Shown here: positions 43,531 through 59,802 of the stretch, in pieces | Layout of the letters: each line of letters opens with the position of its first letter | How positions within the stretch are numbered: the stretch's first letter is position 1 | From: Candidatus Azobacteroides sp. | Lineage (GTDB): Bacteria; Bacteroidota; Bacteroidia; Bacteroidales; WRGA01 | Reading direction: 5' to 3' | DNA length: 64,000 nucleotides | NCBI GenBank assembly: GCA_021201815.1 | Contig: JAJQEC010000080.1 | Location: 1 to 64,000, forward strand | Made by a program: the position numbers and the translations under genes | The notes under the pieces: generated by a model | Told to the model about the DNA's origin: nothing | Databases searched by the model: none | The model's input: the letters and a program-made list of their open reading frames with translations, nothing else

Positions 43531-46426
43531 TTATTTTTTTATGATTTTAAAAGTTTCATCTTCAATCATTACAAAAAATATACCTTTTGAACAAGTGGAT
43601 ACTGGAACATATTCTACATCAGTAGTGCAAAAATGATTAAGTACGGTTTTACCGGTAAAATCAAAAATTCTGATATTTTTATATTCTGCATTTTCGATTA
43701 TAAAATAATCTTTTACTGTAGTAGGATAAATTTTAAAATTGTTTTTCTTTTCGCTAAATTCACTATCATTACTATTAGGAGCATTGAAAGTGGGTGCCTG
43801 AATTACCCATTTTTCACTTCCATCAGGTATGCGGGAATAACTCATATTCTTTTCTAAGGCAGGAAAAGTTACTTTATCGATTTCCTCTATTTTATTTTCT
43901 TCATTTTTCCGGGAAAGAATAAGCGTTTCTCCGGCTTTACTGAGAGAAAAATTAAGATGTAATGGCCCTTTATAAGGTTGTTTATCTGCCCATAATATAA
44001 TTCTTCCTTTGGCTGGAATAACCGTTTTTTCCGGATAATTGTCCGGAAATTGATACAGTGTCGGTCTTGAAGGAGTATCGCTAATATACCAGCCTGCTAT
44101 ATCTACATCAAATAGTTCATCATTATATAATTCTATATAATCATTTGTATCCCCATATTCATCCTTAAACATATTATTTCTCGAAACAACCTCATTAATG
44201 TATATATCAGGTTTATCCATGGGAATAGCCGGTTGGTCTTCTTTATAAATAGCATTTAATGAAATATGGGTAGAAAGATTTATTTGAAGTTCAGCATCAG
44301 TAATAATTTCTTTTTTATTATCTGCAGCGAAAGAGAATTCCCAATGTTTAAAAGTATAACCTCTTACAGGAGCTGCTTTTAGAATAACTTTTTCATTATT
44401 AAAGTATTTAATAGAAATATCATTATGTAGGATGTTTTCAGAAAAGAAGAAGAGGGAGGGATTTTTAATATTGGATTTTAAAGAAATATTTTTAATAGAT
44501 GCGGAATTAAAAAAATAGTCAGAAATAAATGTCAGCATTTTATTAGGACGTTTTTGAGAGAATTCTTTCATGAGTGCCAGATCATAGTTCCATTCTCTTT
44601 CACTTCCACATTTATTTTTATGAAAAATAATTTCTTGAGATATTTTAGAAGAGATACTATCCATGATATGTCCTACTCTTTTTATTTCAAAAGTTGAAGA
44701 TAAGTGAATACAGAATTGATGAATAAATCTTTCCTTAAACTCATTATTTAATATTAATCTTCTAAAAATAAGAATGCTCCATTCTTCCGCCTCTTCTAAT
44801 ACATAACGCAATGTATTATGTTGGCCGACCCCATTATCGAAAAGATTATAACCATAATCTGTATCATATAATAACCAACGCCATTTTCCATTTTGTTTTT
44901 TCTTCCAAACTTTAAAATTATTATGCGGCCAGTCTCTGTTTTCATAATATATCTCTGCTATCATGTAATGGATATAACTGTCAATATCTATTTTTTCTTT
45001 AACTTGTTGATATATTTCATGATTTGTAATATCATTATTTTTAACGAAGTTTGTTAATTCAATAAATTCTGGATGGGTAATTATTTCTTCTGTCTTTAAA
45101 AGATAAAATTCTTCTTCATCTAACCCGTAATTTGTATATAAATAATCTTTATTAGTTCTTTCTCTTAAATTCTGAATTCCATAATATTCTCCGTTTATAA
45201 AGCATATAGCTGGTTTGTATGCCTGATAATCAATATTCATTTGATCTATAATCAATGATTGCATAAATCCATCACGCATCATGGAATAATAAAAATCATT
45301 ACCTGAATTTCGAAATAAGATATCTTTATATTTTTTATTTGGTTTCACTTCTGAAAAAATATCATATCGAAGCCGATTGTCACCGAATTTTTTTCTGGGA
45401 GATATTTTTAATGATTTCAGAGGGTTCTTACGAGAGCACCCGCCGGAAATAGAGATATCTAATTCTTGATTCAGACAACTTATTCCTTCGGTATCAAAAA
45501 GTTCAAAATTTACAGGACGATTCCATGATTGGTTCCAGTTTACAGGCTCTGTTTCACAATTGCCCTCTATCCCATTAATCCCTTTAGTATATATTCCAAT
45601 CATATCATCAAATAGATTTTTTTCATCTGTGATGATAGAAACAACTGGTAAATCAAATTCCCGTTCATTTATAAAATAAGTGGCAGAAGTAATCTCACTG
45701 GGTAATTTATTTTCAGAAAAAGCTATTGCTCTTACACAAGTTGTTTCGGTGAGAAGGATTCCATCTTTATTGGTATATTTTTTAGAATTCGGAGTTGGTT
45801 CACTTCCGTCCAACGTATAATGGATTGCGTCTGAAGAAAAAATGGAAATAATTTTAAGTATTTAATTGCCGGTATAGAAACCACCCGGTAATTCAAAAAT
45901 AGGTTTTTCACAACTTTCTTTTGCGAACCTTTTATTATTATTACTTTTTCCGGGACTATATTCTGAAAAGAAAACCCACTCGTTTCCTCCGTCTGTTTTT
46001 CTTCCATATGAAACATTTCGGAATTGAGCAGGATAAGTTATCTGATCAATAATTTCTTTTTTATTGTTCATCAAGTATAGACTACCTCCTTCCGGGGACA
46101 GTTTAAAATTTGCATGGCCGGTGATTTCATCTCTTTCAAACCAAAGGATGCCATACCCGAAGGGAGCTATCTGCTGAGAGAAGGGTTTCCATTTTGTAGG
46201 TTCTTCCGGATTATCCGTGAAATAAAAATCTTCTATGTCATAAATATCAGAAGATGAATTATAAACTTCTACCCACATACTATAATTAAAAGAATCATCC
46301 ATTACTGCCGAAACATTCTTCGGCATAATTTCATTTATTCTTAATTGACTTAATAGTGAGGGAAAAATAAAGCCATAAAAAAATAAGGATACAAAAAAAT
46401 CTTCTCACAACAAAAACCGGATACAT
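43531..46426 (-). pseudogene. Lamin-tail / CotH-kinase surface protein with T9SS sorting domain, interrupted
   Basis: The parts of one gene lie in order on the minus strand. ATG at 46426 opens MYPVFVVRRFF, which continues as a signal peptide (FYGFIFPSLLSQLRINEIM) only after a one-base shift in a seven-T run (minus strand). A lamin-tail domain follows to FELPGGFYTGN, where TAA at 45864-45862 interrupts the frame. The same frame goes on without a shift through a chitobiase-like segment (IHYTLDGSEPTP), a CotH kinase domain (FRNSGNDFYYSMMRDGFMQS, NGKWRWLLYDTDYGYN), a second lamin-tail domain and a type A T9SS sorting domain ending GIFFVMIEDETFKIIKK. Intact length would be near 960 residues. Likely a pseudogene or affected by sequence errors; the 3' part may still be intact but lacks export signals. 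Confidence 0.8.
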
Positions 46427-46952: not shown

Positions 46953-49900
46953 ATGAGGAAAAATATTAAATATAAATTGTTTATTATATTTATTTTTCAT
47001 TTATTGATCTTTCATAATTTTGCACAGACCTTCGGACCTGAATTAATAACAGGAGGTGATTTCGGTACAACAGAAACAGCAGGAAAGAATGGAGATAATG
47101 GAGAAGGATCAGATATTTATCCGGAGGTAACAGATCCGAATATTCCTCTTTATTATCAACCTGTGACCAGAGCTTATCATAATGGAAATCTTGTTTATAT
47201 TGAAATAAACCCCGGATTAACTATTGGAAAACCCCTGGTGAATAATAGTGGATATACTTGGGGATTAAATGAAGTATGGGATTCGGATGCTTATTTTTTT
47301 CCTGATACCAACGGAAATATTAATTATTCCACTGTGGTTCCTCATGCTCCTAATAATGGATTTTACATTGTAGGGACAACAACAAACGGAATGTATAATC
47401 TCCCTTCTTTAAATTCGCCGGCTTGGTATGAAATATACGACAGGTATGAAACAAACTTTACTAATCCTACAAACTACTTTCTTATTACAAATGCAGACTG
47501 GGATGACACAAAGCTTTTCTTTCAGGGAAGAGTTGCTGTGACTCCCGGTCAGGCTTATCGTATGAGTGCAGATATAAGCCGGTTGAATAATACAGGTGGT
47601 GCACCGAATATAGACTTTATTATTAGTACTGATGGAAGTAACCTGTCTTACGAAACACCTGTATATACGACGGGTAGTATTCCGGACCAGGGTGGTGAAT
47701 GGATAACACATTACTTTGATTATATTGCCCCTTGTAATGCCGACAGTATATATGTAGCCTTCCGGAACGCACATTATGGAGGTACCGGAAATGATGTTGC
47801 GCTTGATAATCTAAGCATGCGGGCTATTTATCCGCAGATTGTGGCAGATACTTCGGATGGATGTGCAGTAACATTATACTTAGACGGTTCCATGGAGGAT
47901 ATATTAGATCCTTTTCTGTATAGGTTATCTTGGGAGTTAAGTTCAGATGGTGGCACATCTTATACGTCTGTGTCCACATTGCAGCAATATACAACCAATA
48001 CACCAGGTATTTACCGGTTGGTTGTTTATACGGATGCAACGGAAAATTGCCCGATTTATTCTAATACGATAATTTTGGAAGATAGTGGGAATAATTGTGT
48101 TTTTATTAATTCACCGGAAGCTATTGATGATACGTATCAGTTAAATATCGGACAAAGTCTTACTGCAAATATTCTTACAAATGATATTCCCAGTGATGGG
48201 ATAAGTAATCCTGAAGATGTATTAAAAGTAACACACTTTACGATAAATGATACCATTTATCCGGCAGGTTCTACGGTAATTATATATAATATTTCCGGTT
48301 TTCGGGCTGGAGTACTTGAATTAGAACAGGATGGTACACTTATCTTTGAAGGTGCTTCCGACTATTTTGGAGCTATACCTCCTATCGGATATACCATTGT
48401 AGAAGAAGGGGGAGGACAAGATAGTGCATACGTATATATAAATGTAATAACTTATGAGGTAAGTATAAATGTTTCTTGCGTTTGTTGTCCTATAACCATT
48501 AAACTTTTAGTTCCGGATAATACAATTACCGATTATTCTTTATACCGTTATGACACAGATGAATTAGTTGTAAATGGAGAAATTGTCGGAGATTCTTTAT
48601 ATTTTGTTTTTAATGAAACTAATGCAGGAATATTTTATTATACCATTCATCAGGAAACAGAAGAGCTGATTTCTGTTTTTGCTATTGTTGGTCCGGACCG
48701 GGCAATCTGGGCTCCTAACACAGTATTAAATTCCCGGAGTTGGTTGGATTATAACAACTGGTATACTCCACAAGGATATGGCTCTCCGAAATGGTGCACG
48801 GATGTTGTTATCCCGGAAAATTCTCCTTATTATCCTGAGCTACAGTATCAGGGTTTTGAACAATGCAAAGATATATTGTTCGAACATGGAGCAGCGATAA
48901 ACCAGATACACCGGTTACTTTATCGCCGGGCATTTGTCCGGTATACACCTGTCCGGGAAAAATGGACCATGCTTTCTGCACCGTTGAAATATATTTATTC
49001 CGCGGACTTTTCTGCCGATCCTACATGGGGGGCTACAGCCGGAATTGATCCGAAAGTATATATGCGCTATTTTAATATCGCTTATGAAAATAATAATATG
49101 CCGAATCCGGACGGAACGACTGGTAGTTCTACCGGAAGTTTTTCCATGGCCTTTTCAGATATGAAAGAACGGCTAACCTTAGGACTTGGCTTTGCTTTGA
49201 ACGTAGGAACCGGAAGTAATTCGGTTTTTCAAGGAACGTTTAACTTTCCACGGTTAAATGCCGATAGTACAGAGGTGGAATATAAATATCATTATACAGA
49301 TGATGGGAGCTGGATAGAAGCTGGAGAGCCAGGAGTTCCTTCTTCCAAATATCCTTTTTATTTTACAGATCCGGGAGAACCGGGAAGAGGAAATGATGTT
49401 CCCCGAACAGATGAAGAATGGAGGGCGGATCATTCTAATCCGGTAGGAGAAGATAGCCGTTACCGGTTTATTTATGAAACTTCTTCCTCTGTAAATCCAT
49501 TTACTATAACACTTCCAGAACCAGGAACAACAAATATTGTTGGAAATCCTTTTATGTCACATATTGATTTTGATGAACTATATGCTTCCAATAGTACTGC
49601 CATATATAACTATTATCGTATCTGGGATGGAAGTGGTTTTTATTCTTATATCACGACTGGCGGGATGGACAATGAGACAACATGGTCCGGATTACCAGAA
49701 GATGGTTTAAGTAATATTTATCAGGGAAGTCGTTACATAGCACCTATGCAGGCATTTTTTGTAGAGATGCAGCCCGGGCAAAATCAGTTAACATTCATCC
49801 CTGATAACATTGCCATTACTCCTATGGATACCACAGGAACAAAGCTTAAGAATATAGATAATCCGGAAAATATCCTTAAACTGAACTTGCAGATGGGAGA

Positions 49901-50534
49901 TAATGTAAGCAAAGCGTTGATAGGAGTTCTACCTTTAGCAACAGATAATTATAATCCGAAAGAGGACGTATATAAGCTATTCTCTTATAATGAGGATACT
50001 CCCGAAATATATACGATTGCAGATGGAGAAGCAATTGAAATTAATGCAATCAGTGATAAAGGGGATATGAAACTTCTCCCCATAGGGATTAAAACCTCCC
50101 GCACAGGAAAAATCTATTTATCTTTTGATGGTGTTCGGAATTTTACAGCTTTCCCTCATATATATTTACTTGATACACAAACCGGAACTAAATTTAATCT
50201 CAAAGATTTTTCTTCAATTCTTATAGAAAAGGAAAATGCAGCAAATATAGAAGGGCGGTTATATCTTATGCTGACAAAACAGGCAAATAATATTTCTGAA
50301 AGCAAACCTGAAAATACAATACATATTTTTCTTAAAAATAATTTTTTACAGGTTTCTTCTCCTTTATCTGCTCTTCAGGAAATAGAAATAATAGATATGG
50401 TAGGTAGAAGTATTTATAAACAGGACAACATAAATAATATGCTTTACACATCGCAATTATCACTACCATCAGGAATATACATCATAAAAGTAAAAAACGG
50501 AGATAACACAGTAGAGCAGAAGATCAAATTATAA
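46953..50534 (+). CDS. Giant T9SS-secreted surface protein, paralogue 1
   Basis: This 1193-residue protein has a signal peptide (residues 1-25, ending HNFAQ), an N-terminal region of about 300 residues with a carbohydrate-binding-like beta fold (ending in VALDNLSMRAIYP), an Ig-like domain with the ALIDDTY-type start and ILTNDIP motif at about 388-500, a cysteine pair CVCC near 508, and a large central region (about 590-960) of unrecognised fold holding YIYSADFSADPTWGATAG and PFYFTDPGEPGRGND. The last 80 residues are a type A T9SS sorting domain (EIEIIDMVGRSIYKQ, LPSGIYIIKVKNG, EQKIKL). It is closely similar throughout to the protein at 51367-54990. A small membrane protein gene follows after 63 bases. 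Role unknown; an adhesin or surface-layer component is the simplest guess. Confidence 0.75.
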   Translation: MRKNIKYKLFIIFIFHLLIFHNFAQTFGPELITGGDFGTTETAGKNGDNGEGSDIYPEVTDPNIPLYYQPVTRAYHNGNLVYIEINPGLTIGKPLVNNSGYTWGLNEVWDSDAYFFPDTNGNINYSTVVPHAPNNGFYIVGTTTNGMYNLPSLNSPAWYEIYDRYETNFTNPTNYFLITNADWDDTKLFFQGRVAVTPGQAYRMSADISRLNNTGGAPNIDFIISTDGSNLSYETPVYTTGSIPDQGGEWITHYFDYIAPCNADSIYVAFRNAHYGGTGNDVALDNLSMRAIYPQIVADTSDGCAVTLYLDGSMEDILDPFLYRLSWELSSDGGTSYTSVSTLQQYTTNTPGIYRLVVYTDATENCPIYSNTIILEDSGNNCVFINSPEAIDDTYQLNIGQSLTANILTNDIPSDGISNPEDVLKVTHFTINDTIYPAGSTVIIYNISGFRAGVLELEQDGTLIFEGASDYFGAIPPIGYTIVEEGGGQDSAYVYINVITYEVSINVSCVCCPITIKLLVPDNTITDYSLYRYDTDELVVNGEIVGDSLYFVFNETNAGIFYYTIHQETEELISVFAIVGPDRAIWAPNTVLNSRSWLDYNNWYTPQGYGSPKWCTDVVIPENSPYYPELQYQGFEQCKDILFEHGAAINQIHRLLYRRAFVRYTPVREKWTMLSAPLKYIYSADFSADPTWGATAGIDPKVYMRYFNIAYENNNMPNPDGTTGSSTGSFSMAFSDMKERLTLGLGFALNVGTGSNSVFQGTFNFPRLNADSTEVEYKYHYTDDGSWIEAGEPGVPSSKYPFYFTDPGEPGRGNDVPRTDEEWRADHSNPVGEDSRYRFIYETSSSVNPFTITLPEPGTTNIVGNPFMSHIDFDELYASNSTAIYNYYRIWDGSGFYSYITTGGMDNETTWSGLPEDGLSNIYQGSRYIAPMQAFFVEMQPGQNQLTFIPDNIAITPMDTTGTKLKNIDNPENILKLNLQMGDNVSKALIGVLPLATDNYNPKEDVYKLFSYNEDTPEIYTIADGEAIEINAISDKGDMKLLPIGIKTSRTGKIYLSFDGVRNFTAFPHIYLLDTQTGTKFNLKDFSSILIEKENAANIEGRLYLMLTKQANNISESKPENTIHIFLKNNFLQVSSPLSALQEIEIIDMVGRSIYKQDNINNMLYTSQLSLPSGIYIIKVKNGDNTVEQKIKL

Positions 50535-50597
50535 TATTTTATTGGATGTTTTTATCCGGAAGTAATTGACTATTGTTCTTTAATTAAACATATTCGA

Positions 50598-51032
50598 ATG
50601 AAGAAAAATAAGAATAACATATTTATACAAAAGATATTCCTTTTCATTTTTACTTTATTTTTTGCTAATATCTTAACCGCAACTCTAACAGAAGTAATGG
50701 CTGCCAAAGAAATTAAAACTCCCTTTTATGTAGATTCGGAAAATTATCCGGTATCAGAATCTGTTTTTCCTGATCACAGAGAATATGAAAAAATCTCCGG
50801 AGAAAAATTTTTAAGTCCTTCTGTTTTTTCAGAAAATCAAAGTTCTGAAATTCTGAAAGATAATGAACAAAAGGTAGCTCTGACTGATATTACTGATGGA
50901 GAGTTGGAAATTGGAGGAGTAGAGAGAGCTGTTTCGGTGAAAGAAGATTATTTTGTTTTTGCTTTCCTAATAATCGGATATATAGGTTTTCGCCGTAAAA
51001 AAATAAAAGCTGAACTTTTAGATCACACTTAA
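50598..51032 (+). CDS. Small membrane protein partnered with giant paralogue 1
   Basis: The 144-residue protein is unrecognised. It has a basic N-terminus and hydrophobic signal-like segment (about 10-30), a charged extracytoplasmic stretch (36-105), the motif ELEIGGVERAVSV near 108-120, a second hydrophobic helix (FVFAFLIIGYIGF, about 123-136) and a basic tail starting RRKKIK. Motif, helix and basic tail in this order recall C-terminal sorting signals such as GlyGly-CTERM, although no match is claimed. It follows the giant gene in the same operon and precedes a terminator. A counterpart lies at 55036-55437. Confidence 0.65.
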   Translation: MKKNKNNIFIQKIFLFIFTLFFANILTATLTEVMAAKEIKTPFYVDSENYPVSESVFPDHREYEKISGEKFLSPSVFSENQSSEILKDNEQKVALTDITDGELEIGGVERAVSVKEDYFVFAFLIIGYIGFRRKKIKAELLDHT

Positions 51033-51090
51033 TGGAAGTCATTCTTATATTATTTTTCTAAATACCATTATTAACACTTTTTTATTTTAG

Positions 51091-51120
51091 AAAAGCCGGA
51101 TATGTTTTTATCCGGCTTTT
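51091..51120 (+). terminator. Terminator after the first giant/small module
   Basis: AAAAGCCGGATA (51091-51102) and TATCCGGCTTTT (51109-51120) form a 12-pair stem with a 6-base loop followed by TTT. The remaining bases up to 51366 are AT-rich with no gene seen. Confidence 0.85.
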
Positions 51121-51366
51121 TTTGTTACTTTCCTTTTTTATATAACTTAACTTTAACTCATCATATAGCTGTTGTATAGCTACTTATATCATTTTATTTC
51201 TTCATTGTAGAATTGTTTTTTTAGAAGAGAATTTTGATAAATATCTCATTAACATAAAGTTAAAATTATATTAATAAAATTTAATCTTAAAAACCCTTCC
51301 CTTTCCACTTTAGTTTATTAAGGAGATATAGTTATGGGTTAACTTATAATATATTAATATATAATT

Positions 51367-54300
51367 ATGAAATCACTACTAAAAAAAGTGGGTGGTTTCC
51401 TCATATTTTTGATTGGAACCCACTCTTTTATATATGCTCAGGTCTATGGACCGGAATTAATATTAAACGGAGATTTTGGAACAATAAAGAGAAACGGAAA
51501 AAACGGAGATAACGGTGTCGGAGAATATATTTACCCGGATGTCGTTTCTCAATCTGCGACGATCGGAATGTTTTATCAACCTCCGGAAAAAGGATTTTAT
51601 GCTTGGGGAGGTCTCTCTGCGGAGAATTTAGGAATATATCCTATATTAACAATTGGTCCCCCTCTTCAGAATGAAACAAGTTACAAATGGGGTATGAATG
51701 TATCAGGAGGAAGTTCTTATTATTTTTCCAATCTCGAGAATGGAAATAGTAATATTCCTATTCCATATGGTCCAACAGATGGAGCTTACATAATAGGAAC
51801 AACGACAAAAGGAATATTTAATGACCCGCTGGCAGGAGCTAGCTGGCATATAGTTTATGATAAGAATGAAACAAATCTGTCTGCTCCTACTAATTATTTC
51901 ATGATTGTAAATTCGGATGATGATCCGACAAAAATCTTTTTTAAAACAGAAGTGGAAGTAACTCCCGGTCAGGTTTACCGGATGTCTGTAGATATTGCAC
52001 GGTTGAATATTACCGGAACACCACCAAATGTAGATTTTGTTATCAGCGCGGATGAAAATAGCCTGACAACAGACCCATCGGTTTATTCTACTGGTAATAT
52101 TTCCGAAGCGGATGGTGGAAAATGGCTGGAGTTTTATTTTGATTATATAGCGCCTTGTACGGAGGATGGCCTTCCCTATAAGGTTTACATCGCTTTCAGA
52201 AATATAAACGCAGGTGGTGATGGAAATGATCTTGCTTTAGATAACCTGAGTTTTAAAGCAATTGTTCCGGAAATTCAGGCAACAGCTATAGATGGAGATA
52301 ATTGTAATAAAATTCTGGAACTTACCGGTGGTTTGGAAGGAGTGTTATCAACAGGTAATTATCGTTACGCCTGGCAGAAACAGTCCTTATTAGGAGGGGG
52401 TTTTTATGGAATAAGCGGTTCTACTTATTATCAGTATGCTACTAGTGAACCTGGTAATTACCGGCTTGCAGTATATAGCAATGAGCCGGATACATATGGT
52501 TGCCCTATGTATTCAAATGTAATAAAATTGGAAATTGATACAGATGGGGAGAGTGAATGTCCTGACTTAAGAGTTCCAAGAGCTGTTACGGATTATGTAA
52601 ATGCACAGGCAGGTACAACTGTTTATTTTAATGTTTTAGATAATGACCAGACCAGTGGTGCAAGTGTTCCTCGTTCAAATCTTATTTATATTCAGTGTGT
52701 AGCACAGTGGGCAACAAATGTTACACCTGCTGGTGAGATAGCAGCTGTAATAAATGGAGCAGGCACTACTATTGCAACCTTACTTATTCAGAAGGACGGT
52801 ACTGCTGAATTTACTTCTATATCCGGATATAGTGGAACTCTTGTTTTTCCTTATTTGATAAGAGAAGAAAACGGAGGGCAATCAAATGCCTATATATATG
52901 TTACAGTAGTACCTTACAGCATGGATATTGATGCATCCTGTATTGATAATCCGGTAAATATAAGAATTGGTATAGATACAGATACTCCATCGGAGTATAC
53001 TATTATGAAAGGTACAACAGTTATGGCAACAGCAACAAAAGATGACGAGTACCTGAATTTCTCTTTTAACGAAACCACCATTGGTGCTATGACTTATTCT
53101 CTAAGGCGCAACGGAACGGCTATGGTGACTTTGTATGCTACGGTTTATCCTTCTTCCGCTACATGGAGGCCGGACTTATCTGTAGAATCTCAACATTGGA
53201 GCGAATCAGCAAACTGGGCAACGGATTATGGTATTAATTTACATCCTATCTGGTGTACGGACGTAATTATTCCCGGAGACGTGGATTATTTCCCTATTAT
53301 AAGTGAAGATGTGGATGTCGATCAATGCCGGGATATTACATTCAGACATAATGCCGCAGTAGGACATGTTCAGAGGTTATTATATCGAAAGGCATTTGTT
53401 GAATATACACCTCTACGGAATCAGTTGACAATGCTCACAGATCCATTGAAATATATATATTCAGCGGATTACCATGCTGATCCGACATGGGGCGCAACAG
53501 CTGCAATTCATCCCAAAGTGTATATGAGGTATTTTGATGTAGATTATGAAAATTATAATAAACCTAATCCCGACGGAGTATACGGAGCTTCTTACGGTAG
53601 TTTCTCCAGGGCTTTTGCTGACCTGAAGGAAAAAATGGAAATGGGTAATGGGTATATGGTTACTGTAGAAGATGGCACAAATGCAGTCTTTGACGGAACA
53701 TTTCGTTTCCCGAGATTGAATGCGGATGGTACGGAAGTCCTTTTCAAATACCATTATACAGATGATGGGACATGGGTAGAAAACGGTGATCCCGTTGACT
53801 CAAAATATTATCCGTTTTATTTTACCGATCCGGGAGAAAGTGGAAGAGGAACAGAAGAACCTCCGACAGATGCTGAATGGATTGCAGACCATTCCAATCC
53901 ACGGGGAGCAGACCATCGTTATCGTTTTGTACATGAGTCTTCTCCTATTCCAACTCCGGTAACGATTACATTACCGCATGAAGGTACAACAAATATTGTA
54001 GGTAATCCCTTCATGGCACATTTATGCTTCGAAACATTCCTGAGAATGAATGAAGATAATATCTATCCGTATTATCGTATCTGGGACGGAGAAGGTTTCC
54101 ATTCCTATATGATAGGTGGAACACGAGATAATGAAGTGTGGGAAGGACTTCCGGATGAAGTGAGTACACTGGATCAGGGAAGTCAGTTTATTGCCCCGAT
54201 GCAGGGATTCTTTATTCAGATGAGAGAAAATAAAACGCAGGTTGTATTTGATCCGGATAGTATTTGCCTTCACCCACACAATGCCGCGGAAGCTCAGTTA

Positions 54301-54990
54301 AGGAGTAGTAAAGCAAAAAGTCAGAATATCCTGTCTTTACGCCTTAAAATGGGAGATAAGGAAGATATAACAATGATCGGATTATTTCCTTCTGCAAAAG
54401 ACGAATATGATCCGGAAGAGGATATATTTAAGTTATTTTCCTATGAAAAGAGTACACCGGAAATTTATACTGTAGTGGATGGAAACGCATTGGAAATAAA
54501 CGCAATGGAAAAGACAGAATATAACAAAAATATTCCTATCGGAATAAAAACCACTCAGACAGGGGAAATTACTATTTCTCTGGAAGGAGGGGATAATTTT
54601 GTACAATATTCGGAAATTAGTTTATATGATGCTCAGGAAGGAATTACTTATAACCTGAAACAATTTCCTTCCGTATCATTTATTAAAACAAGAGAAGAAA
54701 ATGTGGAAGGTCGCTTTTACCTAAGATTGGCCGGAGAAATAACAAATAGCTGGCAGGCCGACGAATCCGAGGCATTACAGGTTCTTGTTAATGACGGATG
54801 GATAATCGCTTCTTCTCCGTCATCTAAAATTACAGAGATGCATGTATATGATACTGCCGGAAAATTGCAGTACAACAAAACTAATATAGCAGCTTCTTAC
54901 TTTAAAGATAATCCTTATTTGATAAAAGGAATATATATTATTAAAGTAAAAACTGAAAATGAAGAAAAAAACGTAAAAGTTGTTTTCTAA
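51367..54990 (+). CDS. Giant T9SS-secreted surface protein, paralogue 2
   Basis: The 1207-residue protein has the same domain order as the 46953-50534 product. The signal peptide ends at YAQ near 25; the beta-rich N-terminal region begins VYGPELILNGDFGTIKRNGK and ends LALDNLSFKAIVP; an Ig-like domain at about 403-520 contains VYFNVLDNDQTSG; the central region again has YIYSADYHADPTWGATAA and YPFYFTDPGESGRG. The T9SS type A sorting domain at about 1125-1207 reads ITEMHVYDTAGKLQYNK and GIYIIKVKTENEEKNVKVVF. The central region is much more conserved between the paralogues than the N-terminal 300 residues. Tandem duplication is the likely origin. Function unknown; surface location is inferred from the sorting domain. 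Confidence 0.75.
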   Translation: MKSLLKKVGGFLIFLIGTHSFIYAQVYGPELILNGDFGTIKRNGKNGDNGVGEYIYPDVVSQSATIGMFYQPPEKGFYAWGGLSAENLGIYPILTIGPPLQNETSYKWGMNVSGGSSYYFSNLENGNSNIPIPYGPTDGAYIIGTTTKGIFNDPLAGASWHIVYDKNETNLSAPTNYFMIVNSDDDPTKIFFKTEVEVTPGQVYRMSVDIARLNITGTPPNVDFVISADENSLTTDPSVYSTGNISEADGGKWLEFYFDYIAPCTEDGLPYKVYIAFRNINAGGDGNDLALDNLSFKAIVPEIQATAIDGDNCNKILELTGGLEGVLSTGNYRYAWQKQSLLGGGFYGISGSTYYQYATSEPGNYRLAVYSNEPDTYGCPMYSNVIKLEIDTDGESECPDLRVPRAVTDYVNAQAGTTVYFNVLDNDQTSGASVPRSNLIYIQCVAQWATNVTPAGEIAAVINGAGTTIATLLIQKDGTAEFTSISGYSGTLVFPYLIREENGGQSNAYIYVTVVPYSMDIDASCIDNPVNIRIGIDTDTPSEYTIMKGTTVMATATKDDEYLNFSFNETTIGAMTYSLRRNGTAMVTLYATVYPSSATWRPDLSVESQHWSESANWATDYGINLHPIWCTDVIIPGDVDYFPIISEDVDVDQCRDITFRHNAAVGHVQRLLYRKAFVEYTPLRNQLTMLTDPLKYIYSADYHADPTWGATAAIHPKVYMRYFDVDYENYNKPNPDGVYGASYGSFSRAFADLKEKMEMGNGYMVTVEDGTNAVFDGTFRFPRLNADGTEVLFKYHYTDDGTWVENGDPVDSKYYPFYFTDPGESGRGTEEPPTDAEWIADHSNPRGADHRYRFVHESSPIPTPVTITLPHEGTTNIVGNPFMAHLCFETFLRMNEDNIYPYYRIWDGEGFHSYMIGGTRDNEVWEGLPDEVSTLDQGSQFIAPMQGFFIQMRENKTQVVFDPDSICLHPHNAAEAQLRSSKAKSQNILSLRLKMGDKEDITMIGLFPSAKDEYDPEEDIFKLFSYEKSTPEIYTVVDGNALEINAMEKTEYNKNIPIGIKTTQTGEITISLEGGDNFVQYSEISLYDAQEGITYNLKQFPSVSFIKTREENVEGRFYLRLAGEITNSWQADESEALQVLVNDGWIIASSPSSKITEMHVYDTAGKLQYNKTNIAASYFKDNPYLIKGIYIIKVKTENEEKNVKVVF

Positions 54991-55035
54991 AAATAAGAAT
55001 AAAAGAATTTAACATCAATCCAAAAGATAAAGAAA

Positions 55036-55437
55036 ATGAAAACAAAAATAAATAAATACAAGATGTATATTTTTCTCCTCTGGGGATCATTCTTCTTCTT
55101 CTCCTTTGTGGAGAAGGAGGAAAATGATGCCTTTACCACCCCGGATGAGAAAGCAATAGTGCCCAATATATTATCTCCTGTCAAACAGACAGATATCATT
55201 GAAGAGTTAAAAGCTTCTGTCATAGAGGAAGAAAAAGAAGTTGTTTCTGATCTTTTTGCCAGGGCTACAGCGGCTGAGAGCGAAGATGAAATAGAGCTGG
55301 GAGGTATTCCTCGGGCTACACCTTTGCAAAATTCTGTGCTTATTTTTATGATGTTGGCAGGAGGATATATTTTTCTCAAGAATAAGAAAGAAAATATAGT
55401 GGTACAGAACTCAAAAAAGAATAATTTATTGAAATAA
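55036..55437 (+). CDS. Small membrane protein partnered with giant paralogue 2
   Basis: This 133-residue protein parallels the one at 50598-51032: hydrophobic N-terminus (about 9-25), an acidic extracytoplasmic stretch (27-90), the motif EIELGGIPRATPL near 87-99, a hydrophobic helix (VLIFMMLAGGYIFL, about 103-116) and a lysine-rich tail. The shared core is E-[LI]-E-[IL]-GG-[VI]-x-RA, then about 8-12 residues, the helix and basic residues. It begins 45 bases after its giant partner with no promoter in between. Not recognised as a named family. It converges with the anti-sigma-like gene 18 bases beyond its stop. Confidence 0.65.
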   Translation: MKTKINKYKMYIFLLWGSFFFFSFVEKEENDAFTTPDEKAIVPNILSPVKQTDIIEELKASVIEEEKEVVSDLFARATAAESEDEIELGGIPRATPLQNSVLIFMMLAGGYIFLKNKKENIVVQNSKKNNLLK

Positions 55438-55455: not shown

Positions 55456-56757
55456 CTATTTTCCGGGAAAATAAATTGTTATTTCTCCAGGAACCTGAAC
55501 CGGATACCAGGTTCCGGACTTCTCCAGAATATCAATTGCAAGTTGGTCTGCTGAAGGACATAACGATTGTTTTATTACAATATTCTGTAGAAGACCATTT
55601 TCCCCGACATAGAAAGATAGCACGACTGATCCTTTCTTATTTTTACAGAAGTCATCCGTAGGCTGTTTTACATTTTTATCAAGGTAATTTCTGAATTCTG
55701 TTTTACCCATAGTGGGTTCAGGATGGGAGATTACCTTTTTTTCTATCTTTTTTTCTGAGCTACCTGTACTCAACGATTTTTGTTCTCGGATATTTCCATG
55801 TCCTGTCACTATTACCTCATCCAGCGTAGCATAATCTTCACGCAGAGCGATAAGCAGTTGGCTTTCTTCTTTTATTTTTGTTTCTTCAGTTTGATAGCCG
55901 ATGTAACTGATCGTTAATACATCTTTTCCGGTAGCCTCAATAGGTAAAGAAAAATTACCATCGATATCCGTAATAGTAATATTCTGAGTATTATTTTGTT
56001 TTACAACAGCTCCGATAATAGCTACTCCATTATTATCTACTACTTTTCCTTTAATCTGCCGAATATCAGGGGAAGTAGCTTCAATATTATCATCAGAAGA
56101 GGATGGAGGTAATGAAATAGCAAATTCTTCTTGCATTAGACCGGAAGCTTTTACAGAAATACTGTCTTCAGTACCTTTTTGAAAATACATGGAATAAGAA
56201 GATTTTTCCATATTTATTTCTTCTGCTATTGTTTCCTTCCGATATGTTATTATTTCTTTCGTATCTTCCATTTCTGATAGATGGAAACCTTCGTCATTTA
56301 TCATACGATTTACTTTTATCTTCTGTTCTAATTCCGGAGTTTGGATAGAGGCAGTTTTTTCCTGGGAATTTTTTTGGGTTCCTCTTTTTTCTTCTGTAAA
56401 AATTTCTCTTTCCAACCTGCTTGTCGGGGATGGGAAAAATACCTGCTCCTCAGGTATACCAACAGTTTCCTGACTAATATACACTTCTTTTTGTGAAGGC
56501 ATGAATAATAAAGTCCCTATCCCGGTCAGCACAAGAAGAGATGCAGCTACCCACCAAATGGATGTATTTTTTTTACGAACAGACGTTTTTTGTATGATAT
56601 TTTCCTGAAGCCTTGAAATTTCTTTTTCATGATTTCCTTTTACTATATCATATCCATCTATTGCATCCTGCAAAAAGGGATCTTTCATCGCTTCATATTC
56701 GATGCGATGAGCATTTTTTCCTTTTCGGTTTCCTTTTATATAATGCAATAAATTCAT
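55456..56757 (-). CDS. Anti-sigma-like membrane protein with CarboxypepD_reg-like and TonB C-terminal domains
   Basis: The 433-residue protein has a cytoplasmic N-terminus with the Bacteroidota anti-sigma-associated motif EYEAMKDPFLQDAIDGYDIV (about 20-40), one membrane helix at about 67-88, a low-complexity periplasmic linker, a CarboxypepD_reg-like domain at about 235-325 (IKGKVVDNNGVAIIGAVV, ITDIDGNFSLPIEAT, LDEVIVTGHG), and a C-terminal TonB_C-like domain at about 355-433 (EFRNYLDKNVKQP, KGSVVLSFYVGENGLLQNI). The product probably restrains the sigma factor encoded 61 bases upstream and senses an envelope cue. The carboxypeptidase-like domain is of the type that begins SusC/TonB receptors and is also found in the VWA protein divergently encoded at 57940. 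Confidence 0.82.
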   Translation of the reverse strand: MNLLHYIKGNRKGKNAHRIEYEAMKDPFLQDAIDGYDIVKGNHEKEISRLQENIIQKTSVRKKNTSIWWVAASLLVLTGIGTLLFMPSQKEVYISQETVGIPEEQVFFPSPTSRLEREIFTEEKRGTQKNSQEKTASIQTPELEQKIKVNRMINDEGFHLSEMEDTKEIITYRKETIAEEINMEKSSYSMYFQKGTEDSISVKASGLMQEEFAISLPPSSSDDNIEATSPDIRQIKGKVVDNNGVAIIGAVVKQNNTQNITITDIDGNFSLPIEATGKDVLTISYIGYQTEETKIKEESQLLIALREDYATLDEVIVTGHGNIREQKSLSTGSSEKKIEKKVISHPEPTMGKTEFRNYLDKNVKQPTDDFCKNKKGSVVLSFYVGENGLLQNIVIKQSLCPSADQLAIDILEKSGTWYPVQVPGEITIYFPGK

Positions 56758-56818
56758 ATGTACAGATAATACAAAATTAAATCATTAAAATAAAATTTAA
56801 TTAATCATGAATAAAGAA

Positions 56819-57400
56819 TTAATAAGAAATTTCTTTTTCTATGCAGATTTTTAGATTCCTTTTTCCATTCTGAATATAGCTTTTTACACTTTTAAGTTGA
56901 AAACCTGTCACATCAGCAATATCCATATACGACATTTCTTCCATAAAAAATTTGCAGATGGTTGTCCGCTGAATTTCCGGTAATTTTTCAAGACATTTCT
57001 TTAAAGCAGTTAATCGATTTGCATTCTCTTCTTTGTCATCGTTATCAAATAGATGCATGATATCCTCAAATTCCACAAATTGCGTATTGAAATCCACCGT
57101 TATTTCTTTTTCTTCTTTTCTTAATTGCTGTAAACAATAATTTTTCGCTACGCTGTAAAGCCAGGTTTTAAAAACTTTAATTTCATACCGGTTGATTTTT
57201 GGTAATAAATCTTCAAAAATCTGCATAACAGCATCTTGTGCTTTCTCCTCATTCTGCAGGTATTTCAGGCACAAACCATATAATAAAGGAATATAACGGT
57301 TATAAAGTTCACCGAAATAATTAGTTTCAGCTGTTTCTAAGTAGGCAGATAATAATTCTTCATCTGTATAGGTAGCCGTATTTTTTTTGAAGATGGGCAA
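56819..57400 (-). CDS. ECF-type RNA polymerase sigma factor
   Basis: A 193-residue sigma-70 family factor with region 2 (YNRYIPLLYGLCLKYLQNEE...AQDAVMQIFEDLL near 30-70, then FKTWLYSVAKNYC near 82) and region 4 (LEKLPEIQRTTICKFFMEEM then SYMDIADVTGFQLKSVKSYI near 140-178). The only usable start in frame is TTG at 57400; an in-frame stop is seven codons upstream and no ATG precedes region 2. The promoter at 57414-57442 leaves a leader of only a few bases. First gene of an operon with the anti-sigma-like protein. Targets probably include this operon and perhaps the neighbouring surface genes; that is inference. Confidence 0.88.
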   Translation of the reverse strand: MPIFKKNTATYTDEELLSAYLETAETNYFGELYNRYIPLLYGLCLKYLQNEEKAQDAVMQIFEDLLPKINRYEIKVFKTWLYSVAKNYCLQQLRKEEKEITVDFNTQFVEFEDIMHLFDNDDKEENANRLTALKKCLEKLPEIQRTTICKFFMEEMSYMDIADVTGFQLKSVKSYIQNGKRNLKICIEKEISY

Positions 57401-57939: not shown

Positions 57940-59802
57940 ATGGAAACAAAGAAACTACATCTTGGCAAATTATTTTTCTTCCTTATGTTAAGTATAGGAG
58001 GAACTTTTCAGTTGGATGCACAGAAAATAACCGTCTCAGGAAAAGTGACAGATGCTGATACCGGTGAAAGGCTTATAGGTTGTGTAATTATAGAAAAAGG
58101 AAGCACGAATGGAATGGTTAGTGATTTTGATGGCAAATATTCGATTACGGTCAGGGAAGGTGCTACCCTCGTATTCTCCTATATTGGATATGAGACTCAA
58201 GAAATAAAAGTGAAAGGAACGGTGCATCATGTGCAATTACGACCTGATGTAGCCCACTTGCAGGAATCTATAGTGATTTCTTATGGAGTTAATGAGAAAA
58301 GAGAATTATCTTATAGTGTTTCTGATCAGGAAGTTTCCACGCACTATTATATTCCTTCTACTCCCCACTTTGCGCCGGATACGGAAGAATATGGAAGTTA
58401 TCAGGAAAATCGTTTTAAACTTGCCTTGGAAGAACCCCTTTCTACTTTTTCTGCGGATGTAGATATGGCTTCTTATTCTAATATAAGACGTTTTATCAAT
58501 AATGGACAGAAGCCTCGTTCGGATGCTGTGCGTGTCGAAGAAATGATCAATTATTTTTCATATTCTTATCCGGTACCCAAAGGAGATACCCCAGTAAATA
58601 TTATCACTGAAATTGGGGTTTGTCCCTGGAATAGACAGCATAATCTTGTACGTATCGGATTAAAGGCCAAAGAAATTGCCGATGAGAATCTCCCGGCTTC
58701 CAATCTCGTTTTTCTGATTGATGTATCGGGTTCCATGTATGGACCTACACGACTGGATCTTGTAAAATCATCTTTGAAATTGCTGGTGAATAATCTCAGA
58801 AGCAAAGATCAGGTTTCTATTGTAGTTTATGCCGGAGCTGCCGGACTTGTCCTCCCTCCTACTTTCGGAAATGACAAACAGAAAATCCGGGAATCACTTG
58901 ATGCCCTTACAGCCGGAGGATCAACGGCTGGTGGTGCAGGAATAAAACTGGCATACAAAATTGCAAAAGAAAACTTTATAAAGAATGGCAATAACCGAAT
59001 CATTCTTTGTACGGATGGAGATTTTAATGTCGGAGTATCGAGTAATGATGGGCTTGAAAAACTTATTGAAGAAGAACGCCGGAGTGGAATATTTCTTACC
59101 ATTCTGGGATATGGCATGGGTAATTACAAAGATAGTAAAATGCAGATTCTTTCCCAGAAAGGAAACGGTAACCACGCTTATATTGACAATCTTCAGGAAG
59201 CAAATAAAGTCCTGGTGAATGAATTCGGTGGAACCATGTATACAGTGGCTAAAGATGTGAAGTTACAGGTTGAATTTAATCCTGCTTTGGTACAGGCTTA
59301 CCGTCTTGTCGGATATGAAAGCAGGTTGTTGAATAAAGAGGATTTTAATGATGATACAAAAGATGCTGGTGAAATGGGAGCCGGACATACGGTGACTGCC
59401 TTTTATGAAATTATTCCGGTAGGAATGAAAAGCAACATTTTGGGAAATGTGGATGATTTGAAATATCAGAAACGGAATAATAATCCGGAAAAAAACGTGC
59501 AATTTACTGATTCTTCCGAATTACTAACGATCAAAATGAGATATAAAGAACCAACAGAAGATGTCAGTAAGAAAATAGAAGTTCCTGTTGTGAACAGAGG
59601 TGCTACTATAAATACGGAAGATTTTTATTTTTCTGCTGCTGTGGCTATGTTCGGACAGTTATTAAAGGAGTCGGACTTTAAAGGAAATTCCGATTTCCAG
59701 CAGATAATTGATTTGGCAGAGAAAGGTGTCGGTGCAGATCGGGAAGGATATCGCAGGGAATTCATCCGCCTTGTAAAAACAGTAAAAGGATTAACAGATT
59801 AA
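57940..59802 (+). CDS. CarboxypepD_reg-like and von Willebrand factor A (YfbK-type) exported protein
   Basis: The 620-residue protein has a signal peptide (about 1-28, ending QLDAQ), a CarboxypepD_reg-like domain at about 32-110 (ITVSGKVTDADTGERLIGCV, DGKYSITVREGATLVFSYIG), a YfbK-type N-terminal segment (TFSADVDMASYSNIRRFI near 170), and a VWA domain at about 253-430 with the metal site D261-V-S263-G-S265. The DUF3520-like C-terminal domain follows (VKLQVEFNPALVQAYRLVGYE near 445). It is exported and may bind divalent metal and a partner protein. Its first domain matches the fold of the anti-sigma-like protein encoded divergently, a frequent grouping in Bacteroidota. Confidence 0.88.
   Translation: METKKLHLGKLFFFLMLSIGGTFQLDAQKITVSGKVTDADTGERLIGCVIIEKGSTNGMVSDFDGKYSITVREGATLVFSYIGYETQEIKVKGTVHHVQLRPDVAHLQESIVISYGVNEKRELSYSVSDQEVSTHYYIPSTPHFAPDTEEYGSYQENRFKLALEEPLSTFSADVDMASYSNIRRFINNGQKPRSDAVRVEEMINYFSYSYPVPKGDTPVNIITEIGVCPWNRQHNLVRIGLKAKEIADENLPASNLVFLIDVSGSMYGPTRLDLVKSSLKLLVNNLRSKDQVSIVVYAGAAGLVLPPTFGNDKQKIRESLDALTAGGSTAGGAGIKLAYKIAKENFIKNGNNRIILCTDGDFNVGVSSNDGLEKLIEEERRSGIFLTILGYGMGNYKDSKMQILSQKGNGNHAYIDNLQEANKVLVNEFGGTMYTVAKDVKLQVEFNPALVQAYRLVGYESRLLNKEDFNDDTKDAGEMGAGHTVTAFYEIIPVGMKSNILGNVDDLKYQKRNNNPEKNVQFTDSSELLTIKMRYKEPTEDVSKKIEVPVVNRGATINTEDFYFSAAVAMFGQLLKESDFKGNSDFQQIIDLAEKGVGADREGYRREFIRLVKTVKGLTD

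Follow-up and report, generated by a model that had tools for sequence, protein, structure and literature searches.

The window, a 64,000-nucleotide stretch of contig JAJQEC010000080.1 from Candidatus Azobacteroides sp. (Bacteroidales), carries two tandem modules of the same design, each consisting of a gene for a very large protein with a type IX secretion system (T9SS) sorting domain (the giant) followed by a gene for a small protein with a signal peptide and a C-terminal helix (the small partner) (Table 1). All four open reading frames (ORFs) have ATG starts and lie on the plus strand, the gaps between giant and small gene are 63 bases in module 1 and 45 bases in module 2, and the two giants are 46% identical across the 1209 columns of an end-to-end alignment; the tandem, co-directional pairing described in the initial annotation therefore stands. 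The strongest terminator-like structure of the region is a stem-loop past small partner 1, and no such structure was seen between giant 1 and its partner, an arrangement that fits one transcript per module.

Table 1. Features of the two modules, by position in the window (pLDDT, predicted local distance difference test; pTM, predicted template modeling score)
Feature	Positions	Strand	Basis
Giant 1, T9SS type A cargo, predicted RemA/RemZ-like adhesin, 1193 residues	46953..50534	+	TIGR04183 35.5 bits; core profile matches RemZ/RemA
Giant 1 conserved core, residues 574-960	48672..49832	+	alignments A1/A5; model pLDDT 84.9, pTM 0.87
Giant 1 T9SS type A C-terminal sorting domain, residues 1131-1191	50343..50525	+	TIGR04183
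Small partner 1, 144 residues: signal peptide, acidic linker, sorting-signal-like tail	50598..51032	+	
Small partner 1 tail: EIGGVERAVSVKEDYF, helix, RRKKIK; motif proline absent	50907..51008	+	profile A4, E 1.1e-8, the sequence itself being part of the profile
Intrinsic terminator-like stem-loop 3' of small partner 1, 14-pair	51089..51122	+	
Giant 2, T9SS type A cargo, 1207 residues	51367..54990	+	TIGR04183 28.3 bits; 46% identity to giant 1
Giant 2 conserved core, residues 588-977	53128..54297	+	alignment
Giant 2 T9SS sorting domain, residues 1147-1206	54805..54984	+	TIGR04183
Small partner 2, 133 residues	55036..55437	+	
Small partner 2 tail: ELGGIPRATPLQNSV, helix, KNKK; PID-CTERM-like	55294..55395	+	

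Both giants are T9SS type A cargo: their C termini score above the 23-bit NCBIfam cut-off of TIGR04183, the model for the type A sorting domain, as the initial annotation had expected, and the same genome encodes the SprA translocon (G000:C114, 2777 bits). Immunoglobulin-like (Ig-like) matches stayed below threshold (Big_9 in giant 1, tand_rpt_95 in giant 2). A conserved core joined to a diversified N terminus had also been proposed, and the first half of this holds; identity between the giants, taken in blocks of 60 residues, is highest in the core (55 to 72% over residues 661 to 960), but the N-terminal domain (residues 1 to 300, 35 to 57%) is not where the proteins differ most, as the Ig-like stretch (25 to 38%) and the sorting domain (32%) are lower.

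The core consists of two segments conserved in Bacteroidales, W..NW...DV.IP and GNPFMSHxDF..., and about 20 more proteins of this genome share the giants' core and C terminus. The region had been regarded as belonging to no known family, a view that can now be dropped: a profile of the core and the domains that follow it matches two Flavobacterium johnsoniae proteins, RemZ (E 2.7e-37) and RemA (E 8.8e-36), over their C-terminal halves, a kinship that a single-sequence search missed and that needed a profile search. RemA is a gliding adhesin, RemZ is its homolog, and both are type A T9SS substrates (PMC10994853); on this match we take the giants to be RemA/RemZ-like T9SS surface adhesins, their adhesin function being predicted. 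In the RemZ structure entries the sorting domain alone is well resolved (PMC10994853). AlphaFold gave a good model of the giant 1 core (Table 1), for which a fold search found no solved structure with Z≥2; the fold itself thus tells nothing of function, and the core may represent a fold for which no structure has been solved. The prediction for the full giant was an all-beta string in which the N terminus is poorly modeled, and its fold search returned mainly generic Ig-string matches, headed by the neck of the Aureispira grappling-hook protein GhpA, with template modeling scores too low for use.

An operon of a giant and a small membrane protein could also be a toxin-immunity pair, with the giant as polymorphic toxin and its neighbor as immunity protein, and T9SS-linked polymorphic toxins do exist in Bacteroidetes (PMC7073777). 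The giants, however, end in a conserved core and a sorting domain rather than in a variable toxin end, and the tails of the partners are common to many cargo types. No toxin domain was found in the giants with Pfam and NCBIfam models, and we rejected this explanation as very improbable.

The two small partners are 26% identical (E 1e-8), and their likeness lies mainly in the tail. Both begin with a signal peptide, continue with an acidic linker, and end in an E-[IL]-G-G motif, a helix, and a Lys/Arg tail, in agreement with the signal-like N terminus and C-terminal helix noted earlier, and the pairing with a giant recurs in relatives. Neither has a Pfam or NCBIfam family above cut-off. The closest ortholog of the window pair, in the metagenome-assembled genome (MAG) U_126897, has the tail ELGGITRVPIQDDVY plus helix, and four Dysgonomonas orthologs carry ELGAV-x2-P[VI]G, with the tails ELGAVDSPVGDAW and ELGAVDSPIGDYK; compared with the tail of small partner 2, which has P-[ILV], a C-terminal helix, and a basic end, these orthologs link the window tails to PID-CTERM, a protein-sorting domain modeled in NCBIfam as NF046080 (PID_CTERM; cut-off 26 bits). 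In G015, another Bacteroidales genome, the partner of a core-bearing giant scores 26.2 bits with this model. P-[ILVM] stands directly before the helix in 37 of 43 partners, compared to 17.9 ± 3 after shuffling (maximum 27 in 1000 shuffles). When the partner tail profile was aligned with PID-CTERM tails in hhalign, motif fell on motif with a score of 23.1, versus at most 20.6 in 18 shuffled-motif controls, a moderate result with a probability of only 56%. The small partners are best read as predicted exosortase substrates rather than permanent membrane helices, and the C-terminal helix, previously interpreted as a membrane anchor, belongs more probably to a cleavable sorting tail of the PID-CTERM type.

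A single exosortase is encoded in the genome (G000:C129); it exceeds the cut-offs of PF09721 (39.5 bits versus 25.7) and TIGR04178 (47.2 bits versus 23). Exosortase X (NF046081, the next accession after NF046080) is the best match among the NCBIfam families compared, but the score of 54.9 bits is below the cut-off of 170, and we therefore describe the enzyme as XrtX-like, not XrtX. Catalytic-type Cys, Arg, and His residues are invariant across 23 aligned exosortase relatives. Because the tails and the enzyme of this genome both fall below their family cut-offs, we do not claim membership in PID-CTERM or XrtX for them, only that they may work like these families. The gene order T9SS cargo, PID-CTERM-type small protein, exosortase occurs in three genomes (G174, G092, and G053), and in G053 the cargo of this row carries the core of the window giants; in two others (G332 and G131) a small PID-CTERM gene adjoins the exosortase.

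Comparisons across genomes, which used longest-ORF gene calls for the relatives and raw genome counts, show that the small partner tracks the exosortase and not the T9SS. SprA was detected in 47 of 50 named genomes that encode core-bearing giants, and the small partner in only 17, so the T9SS does not explain the distribution of the partner; an exosortase is present in 14 of the 17 genomes with partners versus 6 of the 33 without (Fisher p 3e-5). A scan of these 50 genomes for exosortases with PF09721 only was blunt (16/50), and a profile built from the relatives' exosortases (A2) split them more cleanly. In a set of 296 Bacteroidota genomes, an exosortase occurs in 42 of the 47 with PID-CTERM over the cut-off compared to 48 of the 249 others. 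The tail profile (E≤0.01) has matches in 20 of 21 exosortase genomes versus 0 of 19 without exosortase, many of the 20 having themselves supplied sequences to the profile; six exosortase genomes had not, and a verified tail gene was present in four of these (p 0.001). Three of these tail genes, in G377, G393, and G398, lie directly 3' of a gene with a T9SS-type end; the fourth, in G367, lies at the end of its contig, with a core-bearing giant directly downstream. Tail-profile matches inside long frames (G376 and G000:C117) were left uncounted; those inspected sit away from the C terminus.

This distribution bears on a reading that follows the initial annotation, in which the small protein is never cut and remains a bitopic helper in the inner membrane, its acidic periplasmic linker holding or chaperoning the giant of its own module until T9SS export. 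The topology, with a signal peptide and a C-terminal helix with a basic end, and the tight operons with T9SS cargo are as such a helper would have them. A partner that follows the exosortase instead of SprA is harder to reconcile with this role, however, as is the conserved motif before the helix, which a plain anchor does not need, and same-core T9SS giants of Parabacteroides, Prevotellaceae, and Muribaculaceae manage without a partner; we consider an uncleaved helper quite unlikely.

The pairing with T9SS cargo extends well beyond these giants. In a sample drawn blind to neighbors, a T9SS-cargo gene lies directly upstream, at 0 to 184 bases, of 22 of the 29 PID-CTERM genes with upstream sequence; all 10 of the cargo genes that were scored exceed the TIGR04183 cut-off, and the remaining 12 were judged by eye. 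The order of T9SS cargo followed by a PID-CTERM small protein is found in many families of Bacteroidota, beyond Bacteroidales. Contrary to the expectation that it belongs with this giant family, the partner goes with many T9SS cargo types. The recurrence of the pairing across the phylum suggests a cooperation of two distinct protein-sorting systems in Bacteroidota. The class of sorting tail is already known at the database level; in the portions consulted of the literature searched on exosortases together with T9SS or Bacteroidota, no paper was seen to describe it as a neighbor of T9SS cargo. We likewise found no mention of PID-CTERM by name in the literature searched, in which matches to "XrtX" concern matters other than sorting.

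The genome that contains the window encodes about 25 such small proteins, nearly all adjoining T9SS genes, and nearly all of its core-bearing giants have a partner of about 120 to 140 residues. The usual order is giant, T9SS-tailed protein of about 300 residues (e.g., L054:14280-15173), small protein; the window modules lack the middle gene. In two operons, those of contigs C132 and C66, the small gene instead precedes the giant directly (L053:12277-12660 and L057:6499-6897). A pattern common to many of the tails is [acidic]-APPPG-...-Q-K-[IVM]-P-[LM]-, helix, and basic end, and a profile search recovered further tails on C32 and C83, where they lie directly 3' of large genes with T9SS-type ends, and on C81, at a contig end.

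The explanation that we favor, and that we consider probable though well short of certain, is that each module encodes, for joint expression, a T9SS surface adhesin and an exosortase substrate. The tail class, its link to the exosortase, and its pairing with T9SS cargo all emerge from the computations above. The giant would cross the inner membrane via Sec and then, directed by its type A sorting domain, the outer membrane via the SprA translocon, to serve at the surface as a RemA/RemZ-like adhesin. By analogy with the PEP-CTERM and rhombosortase processing models (summarized in PMC7468200), the small protein would be exported by Sec and retained in the inner membrane by its C-terminal helix with the N terminus outside, where the single XrtX-like exosortase would cut it at the PID-CTERM-like motif E-[IL]-G-G-x3-P-[IL]-x-[DNS]. 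This cut would free an acidic ectodomain of about 100 residues, probably with a lipid or glycan on the new C terminus, and the mature protein might then join the T9SS cargo of its own module, in the periplasm or on the cell surface, as an anchor or escort. The operon arrangement favors an action of the processed small protein on its own giant, the main alternative to which is co-regulation alone. Taken to its full extent, this would be a coupled two-system pathway, in which each T9SS adhesin is made with an exosortase-processed small protein that bears an enzyme-added group and anchors or escorts the adhesin at the surface; we put this forward only tentatively, and hold it more doubtful than not. 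If true, it would represent a second T9SS-linked anchoring route beside the known route of PorU and anionic lipopolysaccharide (A-LPS).

A different last step, on a common reading of the tails, is that the small proteins are exosortase substrates destined for an exopolysaccharide or biofilm matrix and make no contact with the giants, operons being shared because both products are needed in surface growth. The exosortase of this genome does lie near a cluster of glycosyltransferase and polysaccharide-type genes (identities by eye), and the F. johnsoniae exosortase XrtF is required for biofilm and colonization (PMC10936215). One small gene per cargo gene, ordered and repeated with many cargo types, is nevertheless more than shared regulation requires, and we regard a matrix role as rather unlikely.

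Several observations weigh against the adhesin-substrate explanation itself. Neither window small protein matches NF046080, and no protein in the whole genome exceeds its cut-off; small partner 1 keeps E-[IL]-G-G and has lost the proline; and the exosortase falls short of the exosortase X cut-off. The co-occurrence counts ignore relatedness, and three MAGs (G359, G365, and G371) have small partners with no exosortase seen. The exosortase is usually unlinked to the modules in this clade, a full-length paralog of the window giants on C147 (38% identity) is partner-less, and several giants of G001 have no adjacent small partner. About half of the core-bearing loci have no adjoining partner, even in exosortase genomes. 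Cleavage of the small proteins by the exosortase is predicted; none was observed.

Ahead of the two modules, on the minus strand, a CotH-kinase/lamin-tail-domain protein with a T9SS tail (43531-46326) appears split between two frames (ORFs 43531-45813 and 45862-46326), pointing to a frameshift or an assembly error. Beside the modules, at 55456-57400 (minus strand) and 57940-59802 (plus strand), lie an ORF with carboxypeptidase-regulatory-like and weak TonB-C matches, an upstream 193-residue ORF that is a putative sigma factor by its appearance, and a YfbK-type von Willebrand factor protein.

In practical terms, the pairing ties together two sorting systems that have been studied separately and offers a rule by which candidate XrtX-like enzyme substrates may be picked out in other Bacteroidota, namely, to look for a small protein encoded beside a T9SS cargo gene; the rule yields about 25 candidates in this one genome, and the giants gain a named relative in RemA/RemZ. 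A 2024 study of the F. johnsoniae exosortase left its substrates to future work and predicted them to be quite unlike PEP-CTERM (PMC10936215).

Of the known systems, PID-CTERM and exosortase X come closest: there too, the proteins are small, are exported by Sec, and end in a short helix and basic residues preceded by a motif of the P-[IVL]-[DG]-x-G type, and they are encoded in some genomes beside a short exosortase and in many cases directly after T9SS cargo, whereas the partners and exosortase described here score below those models and the motif is ELGG-x3-P-[IL] or APPPG...P[LM]. The giants resemble RemA and RemZ of F. johnsoniae (PDB 8gl6 and 8gl8; PMC10994853) in being type A T9SS substrates with a homologous core and C-terminal region, but the match is limited to these parts and leaves the N-terminal domains outside. 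Finally, PEP-CTERM with the EpsH exosortase and GlyGly-CTERM with rhombosortase have the same tripartite C-terminal signal of motif, helix, and basic end and the same economy of one enzyme for many substrates; here, in contrast, the motif is another one, and the substrates are small proteins encoded beside T9SS cargo genes.

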